64,000 bases of DNA from Clostridia bacterium (GCA_024653205.1 JANLFO010000010.1:1-64000); one strand, 5' to 3'. Shown: positions 10,074 through 17,543, counted from the first letter of the stretch. Program-made: numbers and translations. Notes: generated by a model from the sequence alone, not told the origin.

Positions 10074-10553
10074 TCAGTAGTATTTCTTGGAATCCATGTA
10101 CTCGTACAAGAGCTGGAGAGTCTCGCCGAACCGCTGGTAGTGCACTATTTCCCGCTCCCTCAGGAAGCGCAGCACGTCGGTAACGTCGGGATCGTCCGAG
10201 AGATTGATGAGCCACTCGTAGGTGGAACGCGCCTTCTGCTCGGCGGCCATGTTCTCGTGCATGTCAGTTATGGGATCCCCTTTGGACTGAATATACGAAG
10301 CGGTCCAGGGCACCCCGTCGGCGTTGACAAAGTACAGCGCCCGGTCGTGGTCGGCATAGTAGCCGTCCAGGCCGGCCCGCTTTATGTCCTCCAGCCGCGC
10401 GTCTTTGATCAGGTTATAAACCAGCGCCGCCACGATTTCCATGTGCGCCAACTCTTCGGTCCCGATATCGGTTAGAACGGCTTTGGCCTGGGGAATGGGC
10501 ATGGTGTACCGCTGGGTCAGGTAACGTAAAGAGGCCGCGAGTTCACCGTCCGG
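10074..10553 (-). pseudogene. cotJC: cotJC, 3' part (residues 32-190) of a gene split by a 6.3-kb element
   Basis: CotJC is a manganese-catalase-family spore coat protein. This segment encodes everything after codon 31, from YGGPDGELAAS through the end at DSKKYY, including putative metal ligands in DGEL, TEELAHMEI, AAEQKAR and EREIVHY. Upstream of the core the frame stays open but loses all resemblance (SYQKRK, then the recombinase 3' end). The missing first 32 codons lie at 16868-16963 directly behind cotJB, reading up to the same GGG-GGC-CCG codons. Joining the two at the shared core gives a 190-residue CotJC, the normal length. It is therefore a reversibly interrupted gene rather than a dead one; whether excision occurs is not shown by sequence. 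An internal ATG at 10502 could give a 142-residue fragment lacking the first ligand. Confidence 0.93.
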
Positions 10554-10563
10554 GCCCCCGTAC
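10551..10563. repeat. Left attachment core of the cotJC element
   Basis: The sequence CGGGCCCCCGTAC here matches CGGGCCCCCATAC at 16868-16880 with one mismatch. The first nine bases are identical. It lies in frame within the YGGP codons of cotJC. The crossover point must lie in the identical nine bases. Confidence 0.85.
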
Positions 10564-10578
10564 TTTCGCTTTTGATAA

Positions 10579-12192
10579 CTACCGCCGCCGGAACACCACC
10601 TCGCCGATGGTGTAATCCTTCCTCAGGTACAGGGCCTCAAAAGCAGCCCCCAACAGTTCCTTCTGCACCGAAGGTGACAGCCGGTGCAGATTGTCCAGTT
10701 GGTGTCTTATACGGCCACAAAGCGCTTCCACGTCCTTCTCCGTTCCTCCGGACCGGGCGAGGCGCCCTTCGACCGCTCTCTTTGCCAGTTCCAGCCGGTG
10801 CCTTTCTTCCCGCAACTCCGCCGCCCGCCGACCGTATTCGTCCAGGGTAATGGCGCCCTGCTCGTAGGCCAATTGTTGCTTCCTGAGGGCACCGTCCAGC
10901 CTCTCGAGTTCGCCTGCCAGCCGCCTCAATTCCTCCCCCAAATCCTCTCGTACTGCTTCGGCGACCGCCAGGTGCTCCCGTACGGTCTGTCTCAGCCTCT
11001 CGCCGTCCGCAAGCAACCCTCGCAGCAGCTCCAGGATGGCCCGATCGACCCGCTGCATGTCCCAGTACTTCATGGGCCGGCTGCAGCGGCCGTAGAGGTC
11101 GGCGCACCGGTACCGGTAGAGGAACCGGCCCGCCGGCTTGTTGGCGCCCGACTTGGCCGGGTAGCGGGCCCCGTAAATCTTGGCCCCGCACTCCGCGCAG
11201 CGCAACAGGCCGGAGCCCAGGTACTTGCGCTCGGTGGTCCAATCACGGCTCTGCTTCCGGCGTCTCTCCCTCAACATTGCCTGCACCTGCTCGAACTCTT
11301 CCGGGCTGATCAGCGGGGGATGCGTTCCCTCGCGAATTATCCACTCGTCGGGAGGGCGCATCACCCGCCTCTGTCTGCCCAGGGCATCTCTAATCAGAGT
11401 GGTGGTATTGTAGATGGTGAGACCCAGGTAAACCGGATTGCTCAATACCGTACGGACCGCGTTAGGGCTCCACCTGCCGCCTCTGCGGGTGCGGCACCCT
11501 TGCGCGTTCAGATGGCGGGCGATCTTGGCCTGCCCCCAGCCTTCAAGGAACCGCGCTACTATGAAGCGGTAGACCGGTGCGTTGCGAGGATCTACTTCCA
11601 AGTGCTGGCGGTCGGCGCTCAACCGGTAGCCGAAGGCCGGCAGGGGCACGTTGGTCCTGCCTTCCCTGGCCTTCACCAGCTGGGTAATCCTCACCCGGCC
11701 GGCCGTTGCCTTGCGTTCCTTCTGGGCCAGGGCGGCGTGCAGCACGAGCAGAAACTCGTCGTCATCGGTACGGCTGTCGTAGTTCTCCTTGATCGAGACG
11801 AAGAATCCGCCCCACCCGGCAATCTCCCGTTTCAATTCCAGGACATCCATGACGTCTCTGCTGGTCCGCGATATCTCCTTGGTCACTACTCCCCTTATTC
11901 GGCCGAGGCGAATATCTTCCCTGAGGCGATTCAGCTCCTCCCGCCCGGCAACGTATTCGCCGGACCTTACGTCTATATAAAACCGCACCAACCGGTACCG
12001 GTGCAACTCCGCCCACTGGCTCAGCACCTTCTTCTGATTCTCGATACTGGAAAGCTGGCCTCCCTTACGGGTAGAAATCCGGATGTACCCGCCGACGGGA
12101 AGCCCCGACTGCTCCAGGGTACGCCGCGGATCGGCCAGGACTTCCAGCCGTCTTCCCACCAGGTGGGCCGGGATCAACTCCCTCAAGTCCAA
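10579..12192 (-). CDS. Large serine recombinase of the cotJC element
   Basis: A 537-residue (or 535) large serine recombinase. Residues about 30-180 are the resolvase catalytic domain, with the nucleophile in YIRISTRKG (Ser40) and the SRTSRDVMDV helix; about 190-290 the Recombinase domain (PLPAFGYRL, LNAQGCRTRRGGRW); about 345-395 a zinc ribbon (CAECG and CADLYGRC); then a coiled coil from about 420 to 490. TTG at 12192 opens the frame, but TTG at 12186 is better spaced from GAGGGGGG. Its 3' end lies about 20 bp from the left core in cotJC, typical of an integrase next to its att site. It should catalyse integration and, with a directionality factor, excision. It belongs to the same class as SpoIVCA and SprA. 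Confidence 0.93.
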   Translation of the reverse strand: MDLRELIPAHLVGRRLEVLADPRRTLEQSGLPVGGYIRISTRKGGQLSSIENQKKVLSQWAELHRYRLVRFYIDVRSGEYVAGREELNRLREDIRLGRIRGVVTKEISRTSRDVMDVLELKREIAGWGGFFVSIKENYDSRTDDDEFLLVLHAALAQKERKATAGRVRITQLVKAREGRTNVPLPAFGYRLSADRQHLEVDPRNAPVYRFIVARFLEGWGQAKIARHLNAQGCRTRRGGRWSPNAVRTVLSNPVYLGLTIYNTTTLIRDALGRQRRVMRPPDEWIIREGTHPPLISPEEFEQVQAMLRERRRKQSRDWTTERKYLGSGLLRCAECGAKIYGARYPAKSGANKPAGRFLYRYRCADLYGRCSRPMKYWDMQRVDRAILELLRGLLADGERLRQTVREHLAVAEAVREDLGEELRRLAGELERLDGALRKQQLAYEQGAITLDEYGRRAAELREERHRLELAKRAVEGRLARSGGTEKDVEALCGRIRHQLDNLHRLSPSVQKELLGAAFEALYLRKDYTIGEVVFRRR

Positions 12193-12198
12193 CCCCCC

Positions 12199-12339
12199 TC
12201 AGGAGACCGTACCTCGAGGCGCAGAAGGCCCTCTCCCCGCCCCGTTTTCTCCCCGCACCAGCCGGAGCAGTATCCGAACCAAGCGCCTGAAGACCTCCTC
12301 CGGCACTTCCGGGCCGTGCCCGGCCGACGGCTTCTGCAT
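12199..12339 (-). CDS. Small 46-residue protein upstream of the recombinase
   Basis: An ORF starting MQKPSAGHGPEV at an ATG preceded by GGGGGGAGCAAG, ending 7 bp before the recombinase start region. The middle (PEEVFRRLVRILLRLV) is a short amphipathic helix, and the rest is basic and Gly/Pro-rich. It has no relative I can name. Position and size would suit a recombination directionality factor such as SprB of the SPbeta system, but this is inference; it could instead be a leader peptide or not translated. Confidence 0.5.
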   Translation of the reverse strand: MQKPSAGHGPEVPEEVFRRLVRILLRLVRGENGAGRGPSAPRGTVS

Positions 12340-12407
12340 TCTTGCTCCCCCCACTGACCGTGCATCCTTGTTTGCCGTGTGCCACCGCTAGTCAATATAC
12401 GAGCGTT

Positions 12408-13160
12408 CTAGGAGGCCCGTGAATGCAAGAGATACTGCCTCCGGTCATCAAGGAGCAGGCGGCAGAGGCGAAGATTGATCTCTTCGTTGGTTCGGATGGC
12501 GCGAAGCTCGGAATCCGTCGGCCAGCAACCAGAAGGAATTATTTCCCCGCATACGTCCACGCCGACCAACCGGTAACGGTCACGCAGGAGGGAAAGCAAT
12601 TCAAAGAGGGATTGGGACTCCAGCCTTCCGGAGCCCCAATCGGTGACCGCCTCCTGAAGGACGTCCTTATCGATCGAAACGTATACCTGTCTGGCGGCAA
12701 GCTGTGCCGTGGCCAGCATTTCGCGCGCCCGTCTGGCAGACAGCACCCGCAGCTTGGGCGAGGGCACAGGCCGGCAAGGGCCTTCAGACCCCACCAGCCA
12801 CGCCTCTTCCACCTCCGGGCGCTTGACCAGCTCCAGCAGCCACGATCCGCAACTTACGTGTCCGGGCGGAGAGGGCAGGTAGTCACCGTGACGGTCGAAA
12901 ACCACTGCGGTCAAGGGTTTTCCCTGCCGAAGGGCAAGGTGATAGGAGAGGTGGTGCAGGCTGGCGGAGCCCGAAAAGACTATTCCCGCCGGCAGGGCGG
13001 ACAACTGCTTTCCCGCCTCGCTGAAGCGGGGCCAAGGGGATAACAGCTTCAGCTCCCCCGGCTCCAGGACCAGCTTCACCGAGGCTACCCGCTGCAACCG
13101 AGGCTGCCAACGGAGGGCATCGTCGGCATGAACCAGGCTCACCGTCCACATTGTTCCCAC
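12408..13160 (-). CDS. Arginase/agmatinase-superfamily protein, atypical
   Basis: A 250-residue protein of the ureohydrolase fold. Metal-binding motifs are visible: FDRHGD (the DxHxD motif) near residue 88 and SIDKDVL (SxDxD) near residue 160, with VGVDVCGEI in the last third. It is shorter than typical arginases (about 300) and the usual first metal motif GGDHS is replaced by SLHHLSYH, so the substrate is uncertain (a guanidino compound, or a formimidoyl or deacetylase-like reaction). GTG at 13160 or ATG at 13151 could be the start. It lies inside the cotJC element, 45 bp after the MFS gene. Confidence 0.7.
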   Translation of the reverse strand: MGTMWTVSLVHADDALRWQPRLQRVASVKLVLEPGELKLLSPWPRFSEAGKQLSALPAGIVFSGSASLHHLSYHLALRQGKPLTAVVFDRHGDYLPSPPGHVSCGSWLLELVKRPEVEEAWLVGSEGPCRPVPSPKLRVLSARRAREMLATAQLAARQVYVSIDKDVLQEAVTDWGSGRLESQSLFELLSLLRDRYRLVGVDVCGEIIPSGCWPTDSELRAIRTNEEINLRLCRLLLDDRRQYLLHSRAS

Positions 13161-13205
13161 GCCACCCGATTACCCGGCAGTAAGACTGAGCTCTGCCGTA
13201 CATTA

Positions 13206-14609
13206 TTACTCGGCGTTGTGCGGGTGAATTCTGCCCCGGGCCAAAGAGGCCGGGACGGCTACGGCGGATAAGGCGGCGAATATCACTAGGCTGACGCGCA
13301 CTCCCTGACTCAGGTAGGGAGCGGCGACAGGACCCAGGGGCAGATCTTGCAGATACGCGGTCAGCACGGCGCCGGCCACCCCCATACTCAGCGTCTGTCC
13401 CAGGAGCCGCATCAGGGCCAGAACCGAGGAAGCGCTGCCGTAGTGCGACCTAGGCGCGGTGCTCATAATGGCGTTAACATTGGGCGAGGCAAAAAGCCCG
13501 AATCCCAGTCCTAGAAGGCAGAGGATACCCGTCAATTCCAGAAGCGTAAAATCAGAAAGATAATTTGCCATCAGGACCAAGGCCGCGGAAACCAGGACCA
13601 TGCCCGCCGAGGCTACCATCCTTGGCTCCCAATGATCAGACAGCCGCCCTGCCAGGGGTGAAACCAGCGTTTGGAGTATTGGCTGACCGAGCAAGACCAA
13701 ACCGGCCGTCTGAGGAGAAAGGCCCAGGACCAGCTGTAAGTACAGGGACAGTATGTAGCTGACGGCGAAACTGCCGCTGTAACTAATGAAGGCAGCCAGG
13801 TTGGAGAAGCTAAATCCGGCATTTCCGACAAATAGCCTTACGTCGAGAAGGGGTCCGGGACAGCGCCTCTCCCACATTACAAAGGCAACTACCAATACCA
13901 CCCCGAGCAGGAATAAGCAACGGTTAACCACCGCCGGCAGACCCGAGCCCGAGGCCGCATAGAGCAGAATAGAAATGCCCAGCACGGAGAAGACCGTGCC
14001 CGGCAGGTCCAAGCCGTCTTCCTGCCGCTGTGCCGAACGGAGGCCCAGAACCGCCGCGCTCAGAACCAGGGCAGGTAAACCGATAAGGAAGCTGAACCCA
14101 AAGATCCACCGCCAGCCCAGATAATGAGTAATTATGCCGCCGAGCACCGGTCCGGCAGATAGGCCGGCATAAACGGAAGCGTTGTAGAGCCCCAGTCTCC
14201 TTCCCCGCTCTCCCGGAGGGGAATAACTGGTAAGGATCGCGGGCAAGGTGCCGAATACCATGGCCGCCCCTACACCGCTCGCTACCCGGGCTCCGATTAG
14301 AAACCCGACCCCAGGAGCAAGCGCACAGGCCAGTAACGAAGCGATGAAGACGGCCAGACCCCAGAAGAAGACCTTTTCCCGCCCCCGCAGATCAGCCAGC
14401 CGTCCGCAGGGCAGGAGGGCGGCGGCAGTGGCCACCAGATATACGGTGACTACCCAGCCTATCAGTCGGGCGCCGGCTCCGAACTCTGCTCCCAGGTCCG
14501 CCACTGCCAGAGTGAAAGAGCTACTCATGAACGGGGTCAAGAACGCCGCCAACGTAGTTGCCGGAACCACCCAGGCGGGCTCCGATTCCAATACGACCTG
14601 CGTTCTCAC
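13206..14609 (-). CDS. MFS transporter, EmrB/QacA (DHA2) type, in the cotJC element
   Basis: A 467-residue membrane protein with about 14 hydrophobic segments, the length and layout of DHA2 drug exporters. Motif A is seen in LPCGRLADLRGREKVFF and motif C in NASVYAGLSAGPVLGGII. GTG at 14609 follows AGAAGGTG. It would export small molecules across the inner membrane by proton antiport. It lies between the Fe-S assembly pair and the arginase-family gene on the same strand, and is probably co-transcribed with the latter. Substrate unknown. Confidence 0.85.
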   Translation of the reverse strand: MRTQVVLESEPAWVVPATTLAAFLTPFMSSSFTLAVADLGAEFGAGARLIGWVVTVYLVATAAALLPCGRLADLRGREKVFFWGLAVFIASLLACALAPGVGFLIGARVASGVGAAMVFGTLPAILTSYSPPGERGRRLGLYNASVYAGLSAGPVLGGIITHYLGWRWIFGFSFLIGLPALVLSAAVLGLRSAQRQEDGLDLPGTVFSVLGISILLYAASGSGLPAVVNRCLFLLGVVLVVAFVMWERRCPGPLLDVRLFVGNAGFSFSNLAAFISYSGSFAVSYILSLYLQLVLGLSPQTAGLVLLGQPILQTLVSPLAGRLSDHWEPRMVASAGMVLVSAALVLMANYLSDFTLLELTGILCLLGLGFGLFASPNVNAIMSTAPRSHYGSASSVLALMRLLGQTLSMGVAGAVLTAYLQDLPLGPVAAPYLSQGVRVSLVIFAALSAVAVPASLARGRIHPHNAE

Positions 14610-14669
14610 CGATACCGCACCTTCTCTCTACAGACCGCATGTTGCTGTCGTCCGGTATCGGCTACCAGC

Positions 14670-15902
14670 CTACAACAGGGCCTTCTCGCCTGCCGCCACC
14701 GCCCGGTCGATCTCGGCCTGCAGGGCGGCGGGGAGCCCGACTATCTGCACGTTAAGAAAACCGCGGACGATCGTAGCGGTAGCCTCTTCTTCGCTCAAGC
14801 CCCTGGCCATCAGGTACTCGATTTCCTCCTGGGCGATCTTGCCCACCGCTGCCTCGTGCGATAGATCCACGTTGCCCACCTTGGTAAGCAACTCGGGGAT
14901 GGCATCGATAACTCCTTTTTCTCCCAAGACCAGGCCCCGGCACTCCAGGTGCGCCTTTACCTCCTGGGCCTCGGCCACCAAGCAGCCGCGGTTGATGATC
15001 TCCCCGCCGGTCGTCAGGGTTCGGGCCACTACCTCCGCCCTACTGCGGGGCGCCTGAAGCACCACCCGCGAGCCCAGGTCCATGGACGTGCCCGGCGGGG
15101 CCACCAGGATGCTGTAGTAACGGGCCACCGCCTCCGGTCCCTTGAGCCAGGCAGTAGGGTACATCTGCAGGCTGCCTACCGGCCGCAGGCAGACGTAGTT
15201 AGAAACAAAAAGGCCACCCTCTTCCACCAGGGTGGCAGAGCGAGGCCGCACCGCCACCTCTTCCCCCCAATAGTGGATCATGGTGAAGGTGAGGCGGGCG
15301 CCTTTCTTCACGTAGAACTCCGAAACGCCGATGTGCAGGCCGTGCCTCACCCGGGAGGCGCTGGCGCAGCCGCTAATCAGGTGCAGTTCCGCCCCTTCCT
15401 CCACGATCACGATGTTGTGCACGTTCTGGACCGCGCCTTCTTCCTGGAGGTAAAGGCAGGCCTGTAAGGGGTATATCGTACTCGAACCGGGTAGAGCCCG
15501 GATGAAATAGCCGTTGCGGTGCTCGGCCAGCGCTACCTGGGCGGTGTACTTGTCCTGATCGGGGGCCACTATCCGCCACCAGTAGTCCTCCGCCCAGGGA
15601 TACTTCTCCAGCGCCTCAAAAGTACCCAACACCTCTATGCCTTCCTGAGCCGCACCGCAACGCAGCACCGAATGGTTCACCTGCAGAAACGTTCCTGCCC
15701 GATCCGCCCCCTCCAGCTCCACACCGGTAGCCAGCAATCGCTCGCGATCTTCTAATGCCAATGCTCCGGGATTAAGGGATCCGGGCTCGTCCGAAGCCGG
15801 AACCCGGTAGGCGCCCAAATCCAAGTCTTCTCCGTAAGCTGCCGCCTTATCTCGAGCCGCCCTGGCTCGGGCCATAATCTCCTGCCGCCGTGACATGCTC
15901 AT
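14670..15902 (-). CDS. SufB/SufD-like Fe-S scaffold protein (SMS-type)
   Basis: A 410-residue protein of the SufB/SufD family. A helical N-terminus is followed by the right-handed beta-helix core (HNIVIVEEGAELHLISGCASAS, EFYVKKGARLTFTMIHYW, SRVVLQAPRSRAEVVARTL, CRGLVLGEKGVIDAIPELL, DLSHEAAVGKIAQEEIEYLMARG). The HEAAVGKI/YLMARG end is shared by all SufBD proteins. It is short, with no separate SufD nearby, so it resembles the minimal SufBC-like (SMS) systems of archaea and strict anaerobes. It would form a complex with the adjacent ATPase to assemble Fe-S clusters. It lies 6 bp after the ATPase gene and inside the cotJC element. Confidence 0.88.
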   Translation of the reverse strand: MSMSRRQEIMARARAARDKAAAYGEDLDLGAYRVPASDEPGSLNPGALALEDRERLLATGVELEGADRAGTFLQVNHSVLRCGAAQEGIEVLGTFEALEKYPWAEDYWWRIVAPDQDKYTAQVALAEHRNGYFIRALPGSSTIYPLQACLYLQEEGAVQNVHNIVIVEEGAELHLISGCASASRVRHGLHIGVSEFYVKKGARLTFTMIHYWGEEVAVRPRSATLVEEGGLFVSNYVCLRPVGSLQMYPTAWLKGPEAVARYYSILVAPPGTSMDLGSRVVLQAPRSRAEVVARTLTTGGEIINRGCLVAEAQEVKAHLECRGLVLGEKGVIDAIPELLTKVGNVDLSHEAAVGKIAQEEIEYLMARGLSEEEATATIVRGFLNVQIVGLPAALQAEIDRAVAAGEKALL

Positions 15903-15908
15903 CGGTTC

Positions 15909-16691
15909 TTACTGCCCTCCCGCCGGGGTAGAGTTTTCGAACGAACAGCGCACGCATTCTTCGTAACCCATTTCTTGAATGCAGGCCAACAGCTCCCGTG
16001 GATTGCCCCTGCAGGAAAGATGGCCCTCAAACAGCACGTGCCCCACATCGCCGTTCACGTAATTAAGGATGTGCCCGGTATGAGTAATGATTAGACCGGC
16101 CTTGCGACGACCGTGCCGCACCTGGCGCTGAGACTTGCCTTCACGGTGGGAAATGTTCCTCTCCAGCAGACGGTTCACCACCCGCCCGATGAGAGCCATG
16201 TTTTCTAGGTCTACGCCGGATTCCGGCTCGTCCAACAACACCAGCTGGGGATCCTGGGCCAGCAACTGGAGCAGTTCCGAGCGCTTGAGCTCGCCGCCGG
16301 AAAAACCCAGGTTCACTTCCCTATCCAGGAAGTTGCGGAAGTTCACTTCTTCCGCCAGGCTTTCTATATCCACCCCTCCCCGGCCGCAGACCTGGACCAA
16401 CTGCCGGGTGGTGACTCCCCGAACCGTGGGCGGTCGCTGAAACGATAGTCCAATACCCAATCGCGCGCGGGCATCTACCGGCCAGTCCGTCACGTCCTGA
16501 TCTTGAAAATAGATCTTCCCCCGCACCACGCGGTACCGCTCAAAGCCCATAATCGTACCCAAGAGACTGGTCTTGCCCGAGCCGTTGGGTCCGAAAAGAA
16601 CGTGCACCTCGCCGGGGCGGATCTCAAGGTTAATATCGTGAAGGATTTCGCGGTCCCCTACCGCTACGGTGAGGTTTTCCAGCCTAAGCAT
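15909..16691 (-). CDS. SufC-like ABC ATPase of Fe-S assembly
   Basis: A 260-residue ABC ATPase. Walker A GPNGSGKTS near residue 35, signature LGFSGGELKRSELLQLL, Walker B LVLLDEPESGVD and the switch His in IITHTGHILNY are all present. The pattern FSGGELKR(S/R)E plus EPESGVD identifies SufC. Residues KSQRQVRHGRRKAGL are an insertion between Walker B and the switch His. ATG at 16691 is preferred over GTG at 16709 because GGGGGA precedes it. It is the first gene of the element read from the right end, 177 bp from the right core, and precedes the SufB-like gene by 6 bp. Confidence 0.88.
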   Translation of the reverse strand: MLRLENLTVAVGDREILHDINLEIRPGEVHVLFGPNGSGKTSLLGTIMGFERYRVVRGKIYFQDQDVTDWPVDARARLGIGLSFQRPPTVRGVTTRQLVQVCGRGGVDIESLAEEVNFRNFLDREVNLGFSGGELKRSELLQLLAQDPQLVLLDEPESGVDLENMALIGRVVNRLLERNISHREGKSQRQVRHGRRKAGLIITHTGHILNYVNGDVGHVLFEGHLSCRGNPRELLACIQEMGYEECVRCSFENSTPAGGQ

Positions 16692-16840
16692 GACTTTCCC
16701 CCGCTTCACCGGTTATTGTCAGCCCGTGCTCTGCGTCGCTGCTATTATATCCCCGGACGATACGGGTGACAAGAGAGAAAGGATCCCGGCAACAGGCGGT
16801 ACTCGAGGATTCGCCAACACCGACTGCACGGGTATGTAAC

Positions 16841-16963
16841 TCAGGCAGGATAGCAATAAGGGCGGTACGGGCCCCCATACTGGGTAATAACGTTCTTGGC
16901 CAGGCGGGGATTGGGTTGACGCACTCTAATAGGGTACTGCAGCTTCTTTTCGTAAACCCACAT
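16841..16963 (-). pseudogene. cotJC: cotJC, 5' part (first 32 codons) plus 8 read-through codons
   Basis: Starts MWVYEKKLQYPIRVRQPNP, the hallmark N-terminus of CotJC, at ATG 16963 with AAAGGGGGGAG upstream and 15 bp after the cotJB stop. It reads on through AKNVITQYGGP, where similarity stops at the 9-bp core 16868-16876, then TYR-RPYCYPA residues lead to a TGA at 16841. Unexcised, it gives a 40-residue stub. The rest of the gene is at 10074-10550. This arrangement shows directly that cotJC is interrupted within the cotJABC operon. Confidence 0.93.
16868..16880. repeat. Right attachment core of the cotJC element
   Basis: CGGGCCCCCATAC; partner of 10551-10563, same orientation, nine identical bases then one mismatch. 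Reads as codons Y-G-G-P of cotJC on the minus strand. Confidence 0.85.
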
Positions 16964-16978: not shown

Positions 16979-17236
16979 TTACCAGGATACTTCCCAGGGC
17001 CAGGGTTCATCCGGCCAGCGCCAGCAGTCGTGGCTGGGACCCCAGCCGTAGTTGAACAGCGGCCCGTAGCGGTGTTCATACTCCTGCTTCAACCCGGCCA
17101 ACTCGTGCGCTACCTGGTTGAAGTCCGCCAACGCCCTATCGTCATTCGGGTGGGTATCCAAGTAGAGGTTCAGTTCCAGGGCAGAGAATTCCAGGGCCAT
17201 AATCTTGCGGAGCAACTCTCTGCGGTGCGAATCCAT
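16979..17236 (-). CDS. cotJB: CotJB spore coat protein
   Basis: An 85-residue protein with the CotJB pattern: RRELLRKIMALEFSALELNL, LDTHPNDDRALADFN, and a Trp-rich tail (YGPLFNYGWG, WPDEPWPWEVSW). CotJB is part of the inner coat with CotJA and CotJC and is made in the mother cell. Its ATG overlaps the RBS region GGGAGGGA at the end of cotJA, and its stop is 15 bp before the cotJC 5' part, giving the usual cotJABC order. Confidence 0.93.
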   Translation of the reverse strand: MDSHRRELLRKIMALEFSALELNLYLDTHPNDDRALADFNQVAHELAGLKQEYEHRYGPLFNYGWGPSHDCWRWPDEPWPWEVSW

Positions 17237-17239
17237 TCA

Positions 17240-17449
17240 TTATCCCTCCCGGCTGCCACCCAATCGGTACGGTTGGTAGAGTTCGGGGAAAATCGTACCC
17301 TTTTTTAAACCCTCCTCGGGACTGTAGCGCCGGGTATATTCCTGAAAGGGAACATAAGCCCGAGCCAGGCGCCGGGCAGGCCCGGCTCCCAGGGCCTCGC
17401 CTCCGGAAGGAGCAGACGACTCGGGCTTTTCCTTGCCTAATGCTGTCAT
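17240..17449 (-). CDS. cotJA: CotJA spore coat-associated protein
   Basis: A 69-residue protein with the CotJA pattern RRLARAYVPFQEYTRRYSPEEGL followed by KGTIFPELYQPYR. The ATG at 17449 (MTALGKEKPES) is chosen because AGGAGG lies 8 bp upstream. First gene of the cotJ operon. Expression would be expected from a sporulation sigma factor of the mother cell; I could not pick a convincing -35/-10 pair. Confidence 0.92.
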   Translation of the reverse strand: MTALGKEKPESSAPSGGEALGAGPARRLARAYVPFQEYTRRYSPEEGLKKGTIFPELYQPYRLGGSREG

Positions 17450-17543
17450 ACATACCACCTCCTGCCATCAAGATATGAGTGCGGGTCCGGCGGGGTTCAC
17501 TTCCCGGGTGCACGGGGAGGGAAAGGGAAGGAGCGCAGAAAGC

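Follow-up and report, generated by a model that had tools for sequence, protein, structure and literature searches.

A serine-recombinase element that splits the coat gene cotJC and is very probably excised to restore it in the sporulating mother cell

How can a spore-former make a coat protein whose gene is cut in two? This question is raised by a stretch of 64,000 nucleotides from a Clostridia bacterium (GCA_024653205.1 JANLFO010000010.1:1-64000; the whole stretch is called the window here), in which cotJC is interrupted within its coding sequence. We confirmed that the split is real, with two in-frame cotJC parts lying around a recombinase element. We consider it very probable that this is a cotJC-intervening element, which is excised by its own recombinase in the sporulating mother cell to restore cotJC. 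Genome comparison strongly supports such an interpretation of the skin or SPbeta type, and from it we infer excision itself, the role of a small protein and the timing in the mother cell.

Two in-frame parts of cotJC and the DNA between them

On the minus strand of the window, cotJA (17240..17458; PF11007, E 9e-19) and cotJB (16979..17236; PF12652, E 3e-29) are found directly upstream of a cotJC 5′ part of codons 1-32 (16868..16963), which is followed after 6,317 bp by the remaining codons (10074..10550), also on the minus strand. In the Pfam search the Mn_catalase profile PF05067 was divided exactly between the two parts, with positions 1-32 matched by the 5′ part (E 1e-8) and positions 33-196 by the 3′ part (E 1e-46), and the joined protein covers the CotJC part of the profile (positions 1-196). 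Both parts reach the same 9-bp core, CGGGCCCCC, in the same frame and orientation. At the 5′ junction (16868..16876) the core ends the 5′ part and links the left half of cotJC to the right arm of the element; the core at the 3′ junction (10551..10559) is identical. The unjoined 5′ ORF runs into an element-encoded end (YRPYCYPA and a stop), which with the right arm of the element end occupies 16841..16867 on the minus strand. The left arm, at 10560..10578 on the minus strand, forms part of a dyad-symmetric attP together with the right arm. Joining at the core yields a stop-free CotJC of 190 aa. A preliminary description of the locus had given the same split coordinates, shared core and 190-residue product, all of which were borne out; it had also credited the joined protein with all likely metal ligands, which are indeed present, with the correction that every one of them lies in the 3′ part. 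The host genome (2.46 Mb, 51 contigs, 98.8% complete) encodes spoIVA, and a search of its own 51 contigs identified no other match to the CotJC family, so that no second intact cotJC is found elsewhere in the genome.

The DNA between the two parts carries six genes, all on the minus strand. A large serine recombinase of 537 aa (10579..12192) contains Resolvase, Recombinase and Zn-ribbon domains (PF00239, PF07508, PF13408) and, as seen in alignments, the invariant S40 in YIRIST; its gene ends 19 bp from one core, in agreement with the preliminary figure of about 20 bp. Directly upstream of it is a 46-aa small ORF (12199..12339). The others are cargo: a 250-aa ORF that is ureohydrolase-like by eye and has no Pfam match (12408..13160), an MFS transporter (13206..14609; PF07690), sufB (14670..15902; PF01458), identified by the own-genome search as the only SUFBD_core gene of the genome, and a sufC-like ATPase (15909..16709; PF00005), which is 85% identical to a gene of G001. 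In G001, a relative carrying the same recombinase family, sufBC lie among different neighbours on another contig, of 14.7 kb; of the remaining genomes of the order that we examined, most have no sufBC. We also observed that the only sufB of the genome (14670-16709, counted with sufC) sits within the DNA predicted to be excised, and that the sufC gene contains a stretch, RNISHREGKSQRQVRHGRRKAG, ahead of its LIITHTGH motif that looks odd by eye.

A prophage or prophage remnant was rejected because the six genes include no phage structural or replication gene, because the GC content of the element equals that of its surroundings and is no mark of foreign origin, and because the recombinase has no close relatives in phage and viral collections, where only distant recombinases, none with at least 60% identity, were found.

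The same site in relatives and a second cut in cotJC

Profile searches with the recombinase (E<=1e-80) identified relatives in 9 of 399 genomes of the phylum and, in overlapping sets, in 5 of 83 and 12 of 113 genomes of two classes. Together these make 21 other genomes, or 22 with that of the window, to which a Clostridium MAG contig (L052) is added. In 21 of the 22 genomes and in L052, the recombinase family occurs alongside a cotJC affected at codons 28-33, the Gly-Gly site, where the gene is in most cases cut, and the affected cotJC part is usually right beside the recombinase. The exception, G519, has the most divergent recombinase (36% identity), which is located away from cotJC. No adjacency is seen in the G530 assembly, which has the recombinase on one contig and the cotJC 3′ part on another; the recombinase of G001 is itself divided across two contigs. 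The two other recombinases of the window genome, about 29% identical, are located elsewhere. The distribution ties this family of large serine recombinases to the cotJC site, as expected of an intervening element; like such elements, the stretch in the window interrupts a sporulation gene whose parts lie on one strand in the window, and a short identical core restores the reading frame in the window and in relatives. An uninterrupted cotJC was also found when relatives were compared, and one is retained in addition to the affected part in G009 and possibly in G484.

In-frame two-part joins giving proteins of 190-200 aa were obtained for G000, G048, G219, G315, G471, G503, G520, G538, G558 and G560, and one was seen by eye for L052. 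Outside the window the same-codon join works for two-piece genes in nine other genomes and L052, as well as within three-piece genes; because the same in-frame join recurs at the same codons in all of these, chance is excluded. The layout of the window is repeated on one contig of G560, within about 7 kb, and the split is present on the single-contig chromosomes of G219 (68 kb) and G503 (64.5 kb). G315 is likewise assembled as one contig; there the parts are separated by 483 kb, lie on opposite strands (C1 198176-198274, minus, and 681480-681941, plus; L096, L097) and carry an identical 17-bp core. Recombination between them would therefore invert the intervening DNA rather than excise it. In G484 (L179, L180) and G530 (L177), contigs end at the cotJC core or shortly beyond it, and the cotJC 5′ part of G484 runs on into 62 bases that are the same as in the displaced 3′ part. 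Such breaks would be expected from a sample with both joined and unjoined DNA, but we did not accept them as proof of it, since two chromosomal copies of the 3′ part would give the same picture.

In four genomes (G336, G468, G469 and G553) cotJC has a further cut near codon 57, so that three pieces were located; the second-site pieces of G468 were checked by frame. The recombinase near this cut is of a different family, 50-72% identical to the G336 member and about 25% identical to the first family. All three parts lie within 10 kb in G336, and the single-contig chromosome of G553 carries them on the same strand, with distances of 18 and 22 kb. In G489 a 3′ part was found with a second-family recombinase, and its middle part was not located. 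The loci concerned are L098 (G336), L157-L159 (G553), L165-L168 (G468, G469) and L163-L164 (G489). Moreover, G391 (L099, 5522-7426) carries a 3′ part from about codon 61 that adjoins a third, unrelated recombinase, and no middle part was found there. A second, unrelated recombinase family that cuts cotJC and the position of the only sufB inside the element both go beyond the preliminary description. We somewhat favour a wider reading in which cotJC has repeatedly become split at the DNA level within the phylum: two unrelated recombinase families would each use a codon of their own, some genes would be in three pieces needing two programmed recombinations, and the recombinase would be kept as a splicing enzyme. 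The DNA between the parts would then be passenger chromosomal DNA that includes otherwise unique housekeeping genes (sufBC), with the parts inverted and 483 kb apart in one closed genome.

For 15 elements with both ends read, we predicted attP by joining the outer side of one element end to that of the other. In all 15 the two arms form an inverted repeat that has the second GG of GGNGGNCC as its centre. This offset gives 243 matches in 360 positions, compared with 99-120 for the other offsets, and none of 5000 shuffles gave more than 144. The left arm of the element also precedes displaced 3′ cotJC pieces in five genomes of the same order (G006, G010, G013, G016 and G020), each with an intact cotJC upstream of the displaced piece. 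These pieces look like scars of past insertions after which the host regained a 3′ end. Extra 3′ pieces are located at L037, L038, L040, L041, L042, L044, L045 and L046. The piece is free of stops in G013 and has one stop in G020, and we dropped the displaced pieces as a decaying control, for they are too young or too intact. An intact cotJC coexists with a displaced 3′ piece in G009 and in several genomes of the order, indicating that excision is not the only outcome; this counts against the explanation that we prefer.

Selection on the separated pieces and the case for excision

Whether the split gene still functions can be judged from sister species that share the split. In the pairs G558/G560 and G315/G471, omega of cotJC is about 0.03, and codons 1-31 show no amino-acid change (pN 0). 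In G468/G469, the pair with a three-piece cotJC, every piece gives an omega of 0-0.01. Such purifying selection on separate pieces implies that the joined CotJC is made in these split sister species. Comparisons with the window are saturated in synonymous change, so that for the window itself only low amino-acid change can be cited; the suggestion that the restored gene functions comes from the sister pairs. The recombinases of these pairs are conserved too (omega 0.08-0.16), as would fit a split that is inherited, and the distances between recombinases and those between cotJ loci are correlated over 19 genomes (Spearman 0.43, p 0.001).

ORFs of 34-70 codons were found directly upstream of the recombinases, most of them with the motif PxxVYxxLVxxLI. 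In a leave-one-out HMM analysis, five of ten members were recovered at E 6e-8 to 2e-3 among 20,095 ORFs, and the other five were recovered weakly or not at all. A seven-member profile identified a homologue upstream of ten held-out recombinases (E<=0.011), all in sense, and gave no match at this threshold for G336, G468, G469 and L052. It likewise gave no match upstream of the second-family and third-family recombinases or of the two other recombinases of the window genome. Searches of the small ORF against Pfam and PDB returned nothing meaningful and no match to known directionality factors. Its position makes the 46-aa ORF a candidate recombination directionality factor. Scans for sigmaE and sigmaK consensus sites upstream of 20 recombinase operons did no better than on shuffled sequence, and the regions upstream of cotJA showed a slight excess of sigmaK-like sites only. 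The promoter scans therefore do not help the view that the recombinase is controlled by sporulation, and neither an excised circle nor joined cotJC DNA was seen for the window genome; both points count against our explanation.

We propose that the element once entered cotJC at its Gly-Gly codons 30-31 by the action of the large serine recombinase. When the cell sporulates, this enzyme would recombine the two cores, probably with the help of the 46-aa protein, and the 6,317-bp stretch would leave as a circle. The mother cell would then have a continuous cotJABC operon, from which the coat Mn-catalase-like CotJC could be made. The mother cell dies, so that the DNA between the sites would be lost only there and kept in the spore line; with the loss confined to a dying cell, host genes such as sufBC could reside in the element. 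Spore-formers with the split probably rejoin cotJC at the DNA level in this way when they make spores.

Could the same recombination take place with no developmental control, so that rare excision in growing cells provides element-free cells that make CotJC? We regard this as unlikely. It would fit the lack of a recognisable sporulation promoter upstream of the recombinase, the repressor-like genes that adjoin the G009 recombinase as in a mobile island, and yin, whose circles were detected at every culture time point (PMC10747680); the contigs of G484 and G530 that stop at the core could also reflect mixed DNA, and equally two chromosomal copies. However, the only sufB of the genome lies in the element, and its loss during growth would presumably be costly if sufB matters there. 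Moreover, the split has long been passed on while selection acted on both pieces, and it is in sporulation that gin leaves gerE (PMC5595907) and SPbeta leaves spsM (PMC4191935).

Other accounts dispense with excision. That the operon is plainly interrupted, and that this assembly contains no joined DNA, would suit a dead end in which cotJC is a decaying pseudogene, but we hold this to be very improbable: the parts have neither stop nor frameshift and retain 85% protein identity to an intact relative, at saturated synonymous change, and omega is 0.03 or less in the split sister pairs. Translation of the 3′ part alone as a shortened CotJC, with excision unneeded, is slightly less credible still. 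An ATG or GTG does stand just before the core in the frame of the 3′ part in G048 and G009; in the window, however, the first start codon of the 3′ part is an internal ATG (10502) that lies downstream of Glu35, so that the part alone would lose this first likely ligand, and purifying selection also acts on the 5′ part (pN 0 for codons 1-31 in two sister pairs). We give the least weight of all, next to none, to an assembly chimera. The genome is a draft of 51 contigs, but the split occurs at the same codons in more than a dozen independent genomes, including the closed chromosomes G219, G503 and G553. The preliminary description had named as fatal to its proposal a second intact cotJC with no junction reads in sporulating cells, or relatives that reveal a chimeric assembly; the genome has no second CotJC and the relatives speak against a chimera, and what its skin or SPbeta type of design predicts for the sequence (an in-frame core, a shared orientation, a recombinase and no second CotJC) was found.

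Comparison with known intervening elements

Few rearrangements of sporulation genes are known, and most are prophage-borne. Here members of one recombinase family have cut a single coat gene in many genera, a second family cuts it at a different codon, and the evolutionary evidence suggests that the cut cotJC still works. Why such elements persist, and whether a split gene is of use as a developmental lock, can now be addressed by comparing species and in culturable ones. The recombinase family also comes with known natural sites and with a candidate directionality factor beside most members. In a literature search, with most subscription journals outside its reach, we found no paper on a cotJC rearrangement.

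Known intervening elements of sporulation genes are skin, SPbeta in spsM, vfbin, gin and yin (PMC5595907, PMC10747680, PMC4191935, PMC5025042). Skin in sigK (B. subtilis and C. difficile; PMC5025042) and SPbeta in spsM (PMC4191935) resemble the cotJC element in that a large serine recombinase with a directionality factor restores a sporulation gene, and among solved structures our recombinase profile best matches that of the SPbeta integrase YokA (E 2e-35, 494 positions). In contrast to the cotJC element, both are prophages or prophage-like and have other target genes, and neither SprB/YotN nor any other directionality factor of solved structure was matched by the small ORF. Yin, a prophage-like element in yabG of C. 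botulinum V73 (PMC10747680), likewise interrupts a sporulation gene and has its recombinase near one end, but it is known from a single strain, whereas cotJC elements occur in many genera. Vfbin, compared by name, is an intervening element of spoVFB in B. weihenstephanensis (named in PMC10747680) and differs in its target.

The nearest known system in build is gin, in gerE of Bacillus cereus ATCC10987 (PMC5595907), which is likewise without phage genes and has a serine recombinase and a 9-bp core in a sporulation gene. Its excision during sporulation restores gerE (PMC5595907) and has been demonstrated, whereas that of the cotJC element is predicted here from sequence. Gin is 28.6 kb long with three recombinases, while the cotJC element has 6.3 kb, one recombinase and host-like cargo. 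The new target cotJC, the occurrence in many genera, the two independent sites and the cargo of host genes set it apart from the known intervening elements.
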